A DNA stretch of 44,251 nt from a virus. Location: IMG/VR virus record IMGVR_UViG_3300010885_050341, positions 1 through 44,251 of that record; one strand, given 5' to 3'. Made by a program: the position numbers and the translations under genes. The notes under the pieces were generated by a model that did no database searches, was not told the DNA's origin, and saw only the letters and a list, made by a program, of their open reading frames with translations. Positions within the stretch are counted from its first letter, which is position 1. Each line of letters starts with the position of its first letter. Positions 31,020 to 41,554 of this stretch are shown here, one piece after another.

Positions 31020-32117
31020 TTATTTGAAAGTAGTTGGAGGTGCGTTTATACCACCGTTCTGAACCTTTGTACCGTTTCCTGCAATGGTAATAACAGAACC
31101 ATTTTCGGCAAACGCTGCCACATCTCCATTATAAGATTTGATAATTGTATCTTTTTTCGAACCAATGAGTACTTCGTCTGTTTCTGAATATAGTACGATT
31201 GGACCAGTTTTTGTTGTTATAGAAATACCAGCTGGGCTAATTACTATCTTATTATTTCCAACAGCTAGAGTTATTTTTGTTGTACTTTTAACAGTTAATT
31301 CGTTGGCGCTAGATAACTGAAGTTTACCAGAATCAACTTTAAGATCGAAATTACCACCACCTTGTACGTTTATTCCAAACTCGCCCTTAACAATATTCAT
31401 CTTATTACCAACGATAGCATCAACTTTATCGCCAGTTATCGATGTATGTTGGTCGCCTTTTAAACTTGTTACACTATCGCCTTCTTTAGATGCAAAAGTT
31501 TTACCGCCAGGAACAACTTCAACTTTACCTTCTGACGCCCCGCCAACTACTTTCGTAGATCCTTCATATTTTGTTCCGCCAGAAGCCGATCCTTTATCGC
31601 CTTTTGTATTTTCATTTTTTGTAGACTGGTTACTTTCGTCGACGTTGCCGTCTGTATTTTTGCTAGAGCTTCCAGCATTTTTTCTTTCATTATGAGTATG
31701 AGAAGTTTCCATACCCTGATAACCATCGGAAACTTCTTTAGTTTTAAAACTTCCGTCGTGGTTAACTTCTGATTCAAACGAGTCACTTGGCTTATTTGGA
31801 TTTCTGTGAACAGACTTTATTTTACCATTCGTATCAGCTTCCATATAAAGATAAACTGGGTGTTCTGGCTCTTTTGTTTGAGCAGCAGAAGGAGGCATTT
31901 TTTTATTTGGAGGCTGACTTGCGCCTGCAGCAGCGGCTGCAGCTCCTCCAACAGAACCAAATCCAGTTAAACCTAAAGCAGCAGCAGCTCCAGCTGCTAA
32001 ATCAGAAACTGCTGAAGCAGCTTGAACGACGAAAGGCTGACCATCACCAATCGTGACAGTATCTCCAGGTTTTGCACCTGCTGCTAAAGCGGCTGAATTT
32101 GGATCAGCAAAAGCCAT
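31020..32117 (-). CDS. Baseplate central spike, gp5 C-terminal beta-helix type
   Basis: 365 residues. N-terminal 80 residues are Ala/Gly-rich (AADLAAGAAAALGLTGF type). Residues about 85-130 (HPVYLYMEADTNGKIKSVHR, SFESEVNHDGSFKTK) match the region after the gp5 lysozyme in which the helix starts. A disordered Ser/Lys/Gly linker follows. Residues about 205-335 are short repeated strands (GDQHTSITGDKVDAIVGNKM, GKLQLSSANELTVKSTTKIT, DTIIKSYNGDVAAF) typical of the triple-stranded beta-helix of gp5 and VgrG. No lysozyme or OB domain is present in this gene; an OB-fold protein is encoded 1.5 kb upstream. Role: membrane-puncturing needle. Confidence 0.8.
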   Translation of the reverse strand: MAFADPNSAALAAGAKPGDTVTIGDGQPFVVQAASAVSDLAAGAAAALGLTGFGSVGGAAAAAAGASQPPNKKMPPSAAQTKEPEHPVYLYMEADTNGKIKSVHRNPNKPSDSFESEVNHDGSFKTKEVSDGYQGMETSHTHNERKNAGSSSKNTDGNVDESNQSTKNENTKGDKGSASGGTKYEGSTKVVGGASEGKVEVVPGGKTFASKEGDSVTSLKGDQHTSITGDKVDAIVGNKMNIVKGEFGINVQGGGNFDLKVDSGKLQLSSANELTVKSTTKITLAVGNNKIVISPAGISITTKTGPIVLYSETDEVLIGSKKDTIIKSYNGDVAAFAENGSVITIAGNGTKVQNGGINAPPTTFK

Positions 32118-33670
32118 TAAACACCTATATTCTCAAGTAAGGAAGTAGTAGCACCAAGAGCTAAGGTAGAAGCTCCACCGATAGCCATTGCATTTGTTAT
32201 ATTACTTTTAGCAACTGATGTACCTTGTGCCGCTAAAGCCATAGCAGATAAAGAAACACCAGCTGATAATAGTTTATCAGAAATATCAGCGTTGGATGCA
32301 AGAGCGCCTGTTATAGCAGAAACTGCACCAAAGCTATTAATACTATTTAACAAATTCGAAGAACCTCCTAATGTAGAAATTGCACCTGGAATAGAAATTC
32401 CCATCCCACCAAGAGCTCCTGCTAAAGAACCAAGACCACCTAAACCAGCAAGCGCCGAAGGTAATTTTAATGCACTTCCTGCGTAACCGCCCATCAAACT
32501 TACCATTGCAGCATTTTTTGTAAAATTAGTTATCGAAGCACTTACACTACCACCTAAAACAGAATCTGGAATATAAAGCGAAGACGCTAAACTTACTGCA
32601 CTTCCAACCGCTCCTAGGATAGAAGGAGCTAAAGCCATTAAGTTTATGCTACTACCTTTACCAACGACTCTTTCCATACCGTTGTTTTCATGTTTAACTT
32701 TATTATCTTCTAAAATTAAATTTAAAATAGAAGCAGTTAATGTCGGTAAACCTGTTAAAGGACTGTTTATAATATAAGGATATAAATCATCAGCTATACC
32801 TTTTTCGGCTATCGCTAGACATTCTGCTTCTGCATTAGAATATGGGTAGTCATAAGATGTTCTTCTTACTAATGCTATCTGACTTTCTGGAGTCGTATAA
32901 TGCATATAACCAATATAAGGATCTTCTCCTAAATTGTAATAATTTTTAGTTGATAGATCTGGCAAATCTGTTATAAGATCATAAAGAACAACATCCGTAT
33001 ATGTTTTTTCAACATAAAAAACTAAAGGAGTTGGTTTAACAGGAATGTTATTTTCGCCAAATATCAAAGCTTTTTCGACAAGTTTTGCTATTCCGTTCTT
33101 AACAATTTCTTGATAATCCGAAGATATAGAATTAATAGCATTACCTGCGAGTGCTATATTCAAAGCTGTTAAAACCTGAACGTAGCTCGTTCTGTTACAA
33201 AGGATACAAAGAGCTTCTGAAAAAGCGTCTGTAACTGTGTTCTTTTGAGTTTGGCCCATAGTTGCGCCACCTTTAGAACCACCAGCCAAAGCCATCAACA
33301 TTTTAATTATAGCAAAGTTTTTAACCATTCCAGCAAAAACTTGTGCTTTACCAGAAGGATCTACTTGAGCTATTATAGAAGCTAAATCGACTCCAGGAGG
33401 AGCAGATGCAGTTGTAGGAAAATCCGCTTTTGGTACAAATTTTTGAACGGCAGTTTCTAAAGCTTTCGGACCAGTTCCGTTTTCAACAGTTACTGATTTA
33501 CTATCAGCGTATTTTGCTTTTTCTGTATTGAGAGGTTTTCCGCCAACTTTTGTATTATGGGGCGATCTTTTAGAATCGCCAGTTTTACCACCAGCTGGTG
33601 AATCAACTCCTTCTGAACCTGCTTTTTTTTCTGAAATTGAATCTGGTTGATTGCTATTATCTACAGCCAT
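32117..33670 (-). CDS. Unrecognised hub-associated protein (517 aa)
   Basis: Not recognised. The first 90 residues are hydrophilic and probably disordered (Lys/Ser/Gly rich, SISEKKAGSEGVDSPAGGKT). A middle domain has LCNRTSYVQVLTALNIALAG, then TPLVFYVEKTYTDVVLYDLI, and YPYSNAEAECLAIAEKGIAD. From about residue 340 the chain is Ala/Gly/Ser/Leu-rich with long amphipathic or weakly hydrophobic stretches (SLMGGYAGSALKLPSALAGL GGLGSLAGALGGMG). Encoded between the OB-fold hub protein and the spike; start overlaps nothing, stop shares a base with the spike ATG (TAATG). It could be a hub component, a spike chaperone or a membrane-active protein ejected with the tail. Context only. Confidence 0.55.
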   Translation of the reverse strand: MAVDNSNQPDSISEKKAGSEGVDSPAGGKTGDSKRSPHNTKVGGKPLNTEKAKYADSKSVTVENGTGPKALETAVQKFVPKADFPTTASAPPGVDLASIIAQVDPSGKAQVFAGMVKNFAIIKMLMALAGGSKGGATMGQTQKNTVTDAFSEALCILCNRTSYVQVLTALNIALAGNAINSISSDYQEIVKNGIAKLVEKALIFGENNIPVKPTPLVFYVEKTYTDVVLYDLITDLPDLSTKNYYNLGEDPYIGYMHYTTPESQIALVRRTSYDYPYSNAEAECLAIAEKGIADDLYPYIINSPLTGLPTLTASILNLILEDNKVKHENNGMERVVGKGSSINLMALAPSILGAVGSAVSLASSLYIPDSVLGGSVSASITNFTKNAAMVSLMGGYAGSALKLPSALAGLGGLGSLAGALGGMGISIPGAISTLGGSSNLLNSINSFGAVSAITGALASNADISDKLLSAGVSLSAMALAAQGTSVAKSNITNAMAIGGASTLALGATTSLLENIGV

Positions 33671-38704: not shown

Positions 38705-39418
38705 ATGTCAAATTTGCCAAAAATTGACTATCCGATTTACAACTTTAAAGTACCATCTTTAGGAAACAACTATAAGTTTAGACCTTTCCTTGTTAAAGAA
38801 GAAAAACTACTTCTTATGGCAAAAGAAAGCGATAACCCTTCTGATATTTTGTCTGCTATTAAGCAAATTATCAATAACTGTATCATGGATACGAAACTTG
38901 ATATTGATAGGCTTGCTATTTTTGATTTAGAATATCTTTTTTTGAAGTTAAGAGCGGTTTCTATCGATAATATTGCTAAAGTCGCTTATAAAGATTTTGA
39001 AGACGAAAAAATTTATGAGTTCGACGTTGATTTAAATTCTATAGAAGTTGTTTTTCCGAAAAATATTGAAAATAACATAAAAATTACTGAAAAATCAGGT
39101 ATCGTTATGAAGTATCCTTCGTCAACTTTATATGATGACAAAGAGTTTTTAAATTCTGAAAAAGAATACATGTTCGAACTCATAATTCGTTGCATTGATA
39201 AGATATATTATGAGGATGAAATTTACGAATCAAGCAATTACTCTAAAAACGAACTTAGCGAATTTTTAGAAAACTTAAGCATGAAAGTTTTTGAAGATGT
39301 TCAAAAGTTTTTAGTAAATGTACCTAAAATTGAACATAAAATTCAGTATAAAAACTCTTTAGAAAACGATAGAGAAATAGTGTTGAGCTCGTTAAACGAT
39401 TTTTTTACATGGCGCTGA
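38705..39418 (+). CDS. gp26: Baseplate hub assembly chaperone gp26-like
   Basis: 237 residues (T4 gp26: 208). LPKIDYPIYNFKVPSLGNNY KFRPFLVKEEKLLLMAKESD is the gp26 opening (LP.L..P.Y....PS.....RFRPFLVKEEK.LL.A.ES.D). Next are IKQIINNCIMD and LDIDRLAIFDLEYLFLKLRA, and a C-terminal helical acidic domain. Family knowledge: gp26 acts in hub assembly. Ribosome binding site GGAG lies 11 nt ahead. The last codons GAT TTT TTT ACA contain a T7 run, and the following gp51-like frame is -1 to this one, suggesting a G/GT-style tail assembly chaperone pair just before the tape measure. Confidence 0.78.
   Translation: MSNLPKIDYPIYNFKVPSLGNNYKFRPFLVKEEKLLLMAKESDNPSDILSAIKQIINNCIMDTKLDIDRLAIFDLEYLFLKLRAVSIDNIAKVAYKDFEDEKIYEFDVDLNSIEVVFPKNIENNIKITEKSGIVMKYPSSTLYDDKEFLNSEKEYMFELIIRCIDKIYYEDEIYESSNYSKNELSEFLENLSMKVFEDVQKFLVNVPKIEHKIQYKNSLENDREIVLSSLNDFFTWR
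39400..39406 (+). promoter_or_regulatory. Candidate -1 ribosomal slippery site (T TTT TTT)
   Basis: Seven T residues in the phase T-TTT-TTT at the end of gp26, 12 nt before its stop. Slippage by -1 would be fully matched and continues as TAC ATG GCG CTG into the 59-residue ORF. The tail-chaperone context of lambda G/GT supports it. No downstream pseudoknot was established by eye. Confidence 0.55.
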
Positions 39419-39588
39419 ACCATAATTCGTTGGAAAACTACTATACAACGATATTTTCTTTGGTTCAGCATCATAAATATTCAATTAGTGAATTGGAAAA
39501 TTTGATCCCTTTCGAAAGAGATCTTTATACAGAAATGTTAATGAATTACCTTAAAAAATTAGAAGAAAAACAAAACAAAAGTGGTTAA
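39409..39588 (+). CDS. gp51-like small hub-chaperone ORF, possible frameshift extension of gp26
   Basis: 59 residues beginning MALNHNSLENYYTTIFSLVQ, then SISELENLIPFERDLYTEML MNYLKKLEEKQNKSG. The ATG overlaps the end of gp26 by 10 nt, in the -1 frame. The pattern YS..ELE.L.PFERD.Y..ML is the PFER-type helix found in gp51-like and T-domain proteins of tail chaperones. It could be made independently by reinitiation at the ATG or as a gp26-gp51 fusion by slippage at 39400-39406. Placed directly before the tape measure. Too short for default gene finders. Real coding is likely from composition; expression mode is inferred. Confidence 0.65.
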   Translation: MALNHNSLENYYTTIFSLVQHHKYSISELENLIPFERDLYTEMLMNYLKKLEEKQNKSG

Positions 39589-39592
39589 TTAA

Positions 39593-41554
39593 ATGGCTGA
39601 AGTCCAAAACTCACTATTAAGTAGATTTTTAACATCTATGAATAGATCGCATGGTGATTTTCGAAAAAGCGCCAACGATAATAATAGAGATATATCTAAA
39701 ATAGTGAAAGATATATCTGGTGTTTTTTCTAGCCATAAATCTAGCTTTAACGAATTATCTTCCGCATTAAGCGAAGTTCAAAGTCATTCTGCTCAATCAG
39801 CTGCGAAAATAGATTCGACTAATGGATTATTACAACAATCTATTAGCATACAAAATAGTATGCTTGCTGAATTAAGAAGCTTAACATCTTATTTGAAATC
39901 ATCTAAAAGTGCTGGTGGTGCAAGCGGTCAAGACAATACTGGTCTTTTGGATAAATTATTACCAGGAGCTGGATTAGGAAAATGGGCTAAAGGTTTAGCA
40001 GGGTTAACTCTTGGCGCTGGAGCGCTCGGTCTCGGTTATTTAAACAGCGACAAAAGCGGTGGCGCTGGCTATAATGTAGTTGGTGGAACTGAAGACCAAA
40101 AAGTAGATGCTGCTTTACAAACTATTAGAGGAAAGGAATCTGGCGGTAATTATGCAACAACCAGTTTCGCCGAAGGAAAAGGTTCTACTGCTTCTGGTGG
40201 TTATCAGTTTACAGATTCAACTTGGCAAGCTCAAGCTAAAAAAGCTGGTGTAGATATAGAACAATACAAAAGAGCAAAAGATGCTCCACCAGAAGTTCAA
40301 GATCAAGTAGCTAGGTTTTATGTTAAAGATATTTTATCAAGAAATAACGGCGATGTATCTGCTATACCTAGAGAATGGTATACTGGCAATTCTGCAGGAA
40401 AGATGTCAGATAAAGCCATAGAGATAAATCGTGGTCTTACTCCAGAAAAATATACTCAAGATTGGATGCAAAAGTTTAGTCAAAATGCATCTGGTATGGG
40501 AATGACAGTTACAGGAGGTCAAACTTCAGGAAACCAAGGTTCTGACCCGCATTCTCAAGGTGGAATTAAAGTTGGCGGAGAAGGTGCTGGTTCTCAAAAT
40601 GGCATGACAACATTGAGATCGCCAAGTGGAGTCTCTTATACTGTTAATGAAAAATATGCTCAAAATTTTAAAGGATTCGTTGACGAACTAGAAGCTTCTG
40701 GGTATAAAATTAAATCAGTAAGTAGCTATAGACCTGGATCGACGATAGCTGGTACAGGTCGACCAAGTTTCCATTCTCAGGGTATGGCTATTGATATCAA
40801 CCCTAGCGAAAACCCACATACATTCCCTGGCCAACCAAATTATGGTAAAACTGATATGCCAGCTAATGTTGGCGCTATAGCAGCAAAATATGGATTAGGT
40901 TGGGGTGGTAATTGGCAAAGTAGCAAAGATACGATGCATTTTTCCGCAGGGGCATCTGAAGGAGCCGAAGCTGGTGGTAAAATGGATCATTCTCATACAG
41001 CTAGTAGAGGCGGGATGGGAGAAGGTATGATGCCTGGTGTTATGGGCGTCGGTCCGATGGGAATGGGTATGGGTCCTATGGGTATGATGCCTGGTATGGG
41101 AATGCCTCAAATGGGTATGATGCCAATGGGTCGACCAATGGATAATCTTACTGGCGCAGGGATGATGCTTGGTGGCGCTTTTGGAGGCGGTCAAGGAGCT
41201 ATGATCGGTGGGTTAGCAGGAATGGCTTTAGGAGCTATAGGAAGTATCTTTTCCCCTGACGAACGTTCTGGGGGAGAATATGCTAGAAGAGATCAAGAAG
41301 TTAATAGAAGAACAAATCAAATCAATGCTATAAATGAATCTGCCGAAGAAAGAGAAGCATTATCTCAAAGACAATTAAGAAATGCTTCTGAAAAAAGAAA
41401 CGCTCGAGAACAGTCGGATGTTGTTAATAATCAATTTAACGTCGCTGGTCAACGTTCTGATTATAATTCTGATACAAATGCCAAGGCTTCGTGGTGGGCA
41501 GATTTATCTAGAGCTTTTCCTGAATTACAAAGCGCTGTCAAATTTAGTGCATAA
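39593..41554 (+). CDS. Tape-measure/baseplate hub protein with two peptidoglycan hydrolase domains
   Basis: 653 residues (T4 gp29: 590). Residues 1-110 form a coiled-coil (LSEVQSHSAQSAAKIDSTNG). A hydrophobic Gly/Ala segment at 127-150 is followed by a lysozyme/transglycosylase-like domain at about 170-295: IRGKESGGNYATTSF with Glu182, and STASGGYQFTDSTWQ. Residues about 340-455 form an M15 (VanY-type) peptidase: SSYRPGSTIAGTGR, SFHSQGMAIDI (His394, Asp401) and MHF (His449). Then comes a Met/Gly-rich stretch 474-513, a hydrophobic segment 521-553 and a charged C-terminal helix. It follows the gp26/gp51 pair, the usual tape-measure place. Its length would fit a tail near T4 size. Confidence 0.82.
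   Translation: MAEVQNSLLSRFLTSMNRSHGDFRKSANDNNRDISKIVKDISGVFSSHKSSFNELSSALSEVQSHSAQSAAKIDSTNGLLQQSISIQNSMLAELRSLTSYLKSSKSAGGASGQDNTGLLDKLLPGAGLGKWAKGLAGLTLGAGALGLGYLNSDKSGGAGYNVVGGTEDQKVDAALQTIRGKESGGNYATTSFAEGKGSTASGGYQFTDSTWQAQAKKAGVDIEQYKRAKDAPPEVQDQVARFYVKDILSRNNGDVSAIPREWYTGNSAGKMSDKAIEINRGLTPEKYTQDWMQKFSQNASGMGMTVTGGQTSGNQGSDPHSQGGIKVGGEGAGSQNGMTTLRSPSGVSYTVNEKYAQNFKGFVDELEASGYKIKSVSSYRPGSTIAGTGRPSFHSQGMAIDINPSENPHTFPGQPNYGKTDMPANVGAIAAKYGLGWGGNWQSSKDTMHFSAGASEGAEAGGKMDHSHTASRGGMGEGMMPGVMGVGPMGMGMGPMGMMPGMGMPQMGMMPMGRPMDNLTGAGMMLGGAFGGGQGAMIGGLAGMALGAIGSIFSPDERSGGEYARRDQEVNRRTNQINAINESAEEREALSQRQLRNASEKRNAREQSDVVNNQFNVAGQRSDYNSDTNAKASWWADLSRAFPELQSAVKFSA

Follow-up and report, generated by a model that had tools for sequence, protein, structure and literature searches.

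A gp26/gp51 locus of a T4-related phage very probably encodes a short and a long tail-assembly chaperone in a single gene with a -1 frameshift

Introduction

The gp26 and gp51 proteins of bacteriophage T4 are hub assembly chaperones (PMC3004832), and both were named tail-assembly chaperones (TACs) by Vladimirov et al. (2022), as cited in PMC10885494 and PMC12846349. Some T4-like phages have one short and one long fused gene in place of a frameshift (PMC10885494, from Vladimirov et al., 2022), and the same study is credited with poly-T signals for a -1 shift within the TAC-N genes of such phages (PMC12846349). Here, we describe a gp26/gp51 locus in a viral sequence of 44,251 nucleotides (nt), IMG/VR record IMGVR_UViG_3300010885_050341, which may be a fragment and which is referred to at its full length as the window. 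A preliminary description of this DNA knew of no reported frameshift for the pair, a statement that is corrected by the credit given to Vladimirov et al.

We conclude that the gp26/gp51 locus of this phage is very probably one TAC gene that is read in two ways via a -1 frameshift. This reading of the sequence is based on the layout of the locus, the phase of the shift site, its conservation, relatives in which the downstream frame lacks a start codon, an RNA stem that covaries, and the relationship of the two parts to T4 gp26 and gp51 by homology.

Results

The gp26-like gene (38705..39418, + strand, as for all features below unless stated otherwise) encodes a TAC-N-like short form of 237 residues with a match to PF12322 ('T4_baseplate'). 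Its 3' end reads GAT TTT TTT ACA TGG CGC TGA. The predicted -1 slippery heptamer T TTT TTT (39400..39406), assigned from the sequence and from relatives, is in phase with the zero frame (GAT TTT TTT = X XXY YYZ), and the TGA that terminates the short form (39416..39418) follows 9 nt past it, inside the stem described below. After a slip, the frame would be TTT TTT TAC ATG GCG CTG, which is open as far as the TAA at 39586-39588. This -1 frame extension (39406..39588) has 60 sense codons and would contribute the gp51-like C-terminal domain of a long form. The predicted fusion has 234 + 60 = 294 residues, with ...NDFF-YMALNH... at the junction and EIVLSSLNDFFYMALNHNSLENYYTTIFSLVQHHK as the junction-spanning peptide, while the downstream gp51-like open reading frame (ORF) itself has 59 codons. 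According to the preliminary description, the end of gp26 contains seven T residues in the correct phase for a -1 slip, and the -1 frame is open through the 59-residue ORF; the sequence bears out both statements. The window, 44 kb long and possibly a fragment, yielded one gp26 gene, and its layout is of the frameshift type rather than the T4 type with separate genes for the two forms.

The gp26 of this phage matched PF12322 with an E value of 3e-54 over profile positions 2-218 of 219, and phrog_150 with an E value of 3e-56. The gp51-like ORF matched the phrog_634 family ('baseplate hub assembly catalyst', gp51; E 3e-23). It also faintly matched phrog_150 at its distal end, in columns 237-278, which hints that both parts are on one chain in some family members. 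In a profile comparison, gp26 matched T4-type gp51 with a probability of 97% and an E value of 2.5e-11. AlphaFold2 gave a confident model of gp26 (pLDDT 91) and a model of a T4-type gp51 with a pLDDT of 83. Searching a viral structure library with the gp26 model gave hub chaperones of other T4-like phages together with myovirus proteins that are uncharacterised; a search of the PDB for sequence relatives gave no significant match.

Across the 12,954 codons of the window's 30 larger genes, there are 84 in-phase X_XXY_YYZ heptamers, three of them of the T_TTT_TTY type. The open -1 run after such heptamers has a median length of 7 codons, compared with 62 codons at 39400-39406, and this is the only one of the 84 that is located at a gene end with a conserved domain in a long -1 frame beyond it.

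Conservation was assessed in 90 related viral loci carrying both parts, most of them from two scans of viral contigs. Two of the loci (L001 and L011) are the window's own sequence, and one (L010) is from the cultured cyanophage S-RS29. Distinct sets consisted of 56 loci with less than 70% gp26 identity and of 24 loci with less than 50%. The frame of the gp51 domain was -1 relative to gp26 in all 90 loci, each of which had an in-phase heptamer within the overlap, 0-24 nt upstream of the gp26 stop codon. The heptamer was TTTTTTC in 47 loci and TTTTTTT in 42, and one, within a longer T run, was read as TTTTTTA. The frameshift layout and the shift site were both found in the named phages S-SM1, S-RS29, Cronobacter S13, Aeromonas AS-szw, Vibrio VP04, phiN3, pf16, BUCT608, RL38J1, nACB2 and Desulfovibrio 7757.

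The codon ahead of the Phe-Phe pair specifies Asp, Ser, Asn or Ala, yet T is invariant at its third position, and no locus has a first Phe codon other than TTT. Judged by the codon usage of the genes concerned, the probability of a T at both synonymous heptamer positions is about 10^-20 for the 56 loci and 10^-10 for the 24 loci, values that ignore relatedness, and the T_TTT pattern occurred at 1 of the 65 Phe-Phe pairs that these genes have elsewhere. This synonymous-site test rules out conservation of the Phe-Phe amino acids as the sole cause of the pattern. The same test, the conservation in 90 of 90 loci and the heptamer count in the window together rule out a chance T7 in an AT-rich genome.

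A putative stem of 9 base pairs (bp) was identified downstream of the heptamer by folding, covariation and a recoding test. Its 5' arm (GCTGAACCA, 39414..39422) begins 7 nt after the slippery site, and its 3' arm (TGGTTCAGC) is located at 39461..39469. The stem of this phage (GCUGAACCA/UGGUUCAGC) includes the gp26 stop codon and occurs in the TTTTTTT-type relatives. The 74 nt past the heptamer fold with -22.7 kcal/mol (z -6.0), and the mean folding z was -2.1 over the 90 loci versus -0.37 for 691 control windows. In the TTTTTTT-type relatives, 93.4% of the stem cells were paired, versus 20-34% when the stem was slid. In four stem pairs, both sides had changed. The covariation of 0.254, versus 0.168 +/- 0.014, was reached in none of 500 shuffles. 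RNAalifold, run unaided, predicted 8 of the 9 pairs. Recoding with synonymous codons gave 5.0 of 9 pairs and a minimum free energy of -6.0 kcal/mol, versus the observed 8.4 pairs and -16.9 kcal/mol, ruling out that the stem is a by-product of the protein sequence. A search of Rfam gave no match to a known RNA family at the site.

The first alternative to a frameshift is that gp51 is a separate protein made by re-initiation after gp26 at the overlapping ATG (39409..39411; ATGGCGCTGA), which would be ordinary translational coupling. This ATG exists in the phage and was chosen by the gene caller as the gp51 start, and TAATG or TGATG overlaps are present in some members of the family (VP04, phiN3, BUCT608, XF4, Cygsa01 and K369). 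Nevertheless, we regard re-initiation as improbable. In the 90 loci, the codon at the position in question was ATA in 20, GTA in 10, GTG and TTG in 7 each, and ATG in just 4, of which 2 are the window's own sequence. When start codons were searched for between the upstream -1 stop and 12 codons into the gp51 domain, 40 of the 56 distinct loci had no ATG, and 28 had no ATG, GTG or TTG. In many relatives, a -1 stop is located right ahead of the slippery site, and the open stretch then begins with FFY or FFR. No Shine-Dalgarno-like motif was found 5-15 nt upstream of any candidate start in the 90 loci; for candidate starts near the site, the T run fills the Shine-Dalgarno place. The ATG of the window, likewise without a Shine-Dalgarno-like site upstream, hinges on the third base of the Thr codon ACA, which is ACT or ACC in relatives whose local protein sequence is identical, and is probably incidental. 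Finally, re-initiation leaves the invariant heptamer and the stem unexplained.

In the annotated genomes of S-SM1 (L112 3211-3393) and S-RS29 (L010 4738-4875), gp51 starts within the conserved domain, the beginning of which is lost. Such truncated annotations are expected if a gene caller is forced to find a start.

Slippage of RNA polymerase on the T run, which would join the frames through an extra U in some transcripts, appears less probable still. Runs of T can cause transcriptional slippage. However, about half of the relatives have six Ts followed by a C, the polymerase has no need of the invariant codon phase, and the spacing of the stem is that of ribosomal shift sites. A sequencing or assembly error that split one gene, which a T7 homopolymer within a metagenomic contig might bring to mind, has a negligible probability and is refuted by the relatives: the layout recurs in 90 loci that come from many samples, as well as in the genomes of cultured phages, and does so with TTTTTTC too.

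Several observations weigh against the frameshift reading. Two loci (L005 and L029) are without the stem, and two others (L003 and L004) have it in another register. No single consensus stem was found across the TTTTTTC group of cyanophage relatives, which have individual hairpins with none in common. A Foldseek search with gp26 gave no significant match to any solved structure, chaperones included, with the HK97 chaperone 2ob9 at E 2.7-3.6. Lastly, this phage does have a -1-frame ATG at 39409, and some separate gp51 may be made from it.

The preliminary description had interpreted the locus as a frameshifted TAC of the G/GT type, and the relatives and the stem support this interpretation. The T run and its -1 phase, which it had proposed to compare among relatives, are conserved in 90 of 90 loci, as is the adjacency of the two parts, and the roughly 60 nt past the site, which it had proposed to fold, form a strong, covarying stem (z about -6). 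It had named other relative phases and initiation at ATG 39409 as contrary evidence; in this clade, the phase is -1 in 90 of 90 loci and the ATG is present in 4 of 90.

T4 gp26 (208 residues) and T4 gp51 (249 residues) both matched PF12322 over the full length, with E values of 9e-64 and 4e-52, respectively. T4 gp51 consists of a gp26-like part with the gp51 tail in frame, and matched phrog_150 columns 13-280 as well as phrog_634. Going by these matches, T4 has a pair of paralogous genes, with gp51 as the long form and gp26 as the short one; the predicted fusion of this phage would correspond to the entire T4 gp51, and its gp26 alone to T4 gp26. The preliminary description regarded T4 gp26 and gp51 as separate proteins. 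T4 gp51 is more than the downstream domain, being a 249-residue gp26-like protein with the tail fused to it. The T4 gp26 gene ends GAG TTC TTT GAG TTA CTA TAA, without a heptamer, and terminates where the shift site would be. A divergent short/long arrangement as in T4 was also found in Aeromonas 31, Acinetobacter KARL-1, Proteus phiP4-3 and a Krischvirus.

In an unrooted tree of 44 sequences, T4-type gp26 and gp51 were on one side of a branch (97/93) and the frameshift-type sequences on the other. This fits one duplication in the T4-type lineage, in a tree that is unrooted and in which several T4-type branches are long. RB43 has a long (247 residues) and a short (185 residues) PF12322 gene in tandem on one strand (L098 2501-3794), possibly an intermediate of duplication.

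A third, Ackermannviridae-like group comprised SFP10, Dickeya XF4, AV101, KNP4, Menlow, Cygsa01, Vibrio K369 and GR28A. In the gp26 ends examined from this group (L103, L104, L105, L107, L111, L123, L124 and L125), the canonical heptamer was absent and (A/C/G)TT TTC was kept one codon before the gp26 stop (GCT TTC in GR28A). Some members have TAATG, and in SFP10, KNP4 and Menlow the gp51-like frame has no usual start codon. The gp51-like frame is unannotated in SFP10 and Menlow.

The gene next to the locus (39593..41554), which the preliminary description had taken for the tape-measure gene, encodes a protein of 653 residues with a match to M15 peptidases and a weak transglycosylase-like match. 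From its position, this protein is a plausible candidate tape measure or hub protein. No match to a gp29-like or tape-measure family was obtained for it or for the other window genes scanned. Elsewhere in the window, the gene at 32117-33670 on the - strand contains an in-phase AAAAAAT heptamer followed by a -1 frame that is open for 58 codons.

Discussion

That ribosomes actually slip at this site, that short and long products are made in a certain ratio, and that they act as chaperones in this phage is what we infer. Most ribosomes would end at the TGA at 39416-39418, yielding gp26 as the 237-residue short form. A minority would be stalled by the stem, 7 nt further on, while positioned on U7 with tRNA-Phe in the P and A sites. 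These would slip back by one base, with perfect re-pairing to UUU UUU, and would read 60 more codons to give the 294-residue long form bearing the 'gp51' C-terminal domain. If lambda gpG/gpGT is a guide, the tape-measure protein might be coated by many copies of the short form and few of the long form, with the extension recruiting a tail-tube or hub protein. The roles proposed for the two forms rest on lambda (PMC5009743) and on T4 gp26 and gp51 as hub assembly chaperones (PMC3004832).

More tentatively, and with some doubt on our part, T4-related phages may have reached one chaperone pair by three routes. These would be a canonical -1 site, with a covarying, ratio-setting stem in the clade of this phage; duplication and in-frame fusion in the lineage of T4; and, in the Ackermannviridae-like clade, re-initiation at TAATG, a degenerate (A/C/G)TT_TTC site, or both.

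The pair itself has already been described. What is new here is how widely the arrangement is conserved, the stem with its covariation, and a related clade whose shift site is degenerate; for the stem and that clade, we found no earlier report in the searchable literature, Vladimirov et al. (2022) itself excluded. The gene pair occurs in the genomes of hundreds of marine T4-like phages, where the usual annotation of 'gp51' is as a separate, often truncated gene; it would be better understood as the terminal part of a frameshift product.

Among described systems, the TAC locus of Vandenendeviridae and Andersonviridae has a conserved -1 poly-T shift at the end of TAC-N and a downstream part misannotated as a hypothetical gene, according to the available sections of PMC12846349. 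These are other families with the motif GTTTTT, and no covarying stem turned up in those sections. In lambda gpG/gpGT (Xu, Hendrix & Duda, 2004; reviewed in PMC5009743), the downstream part is likewise an extension, and a short and a long product are made. Unlike the lambda genes, the locus of this phage adjoins hub/baseplate genes. The shift site also differs, being GGGAAAG in lambda and T_TTT_TTT in this phage. No significant fold or sequence match to the solved HK97 chaperone was obtained. T4 gp26 and gp51 belong to the same family, PF12322, and form the same short/long pair as is predicted for this phage. However, T4, Aeromonas 31, KARL-1, phiP4-3, the Krischvirus and RB43 have separate paralogous genes, whereas this phage has one gene with a shift site and a stem. 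The two arrangements offer a natural comparison of how the ratio of short to long chaperone is determined, which in one lineage would depend on a slippery site and a stem, and in T4 on genes that are expressed separately.
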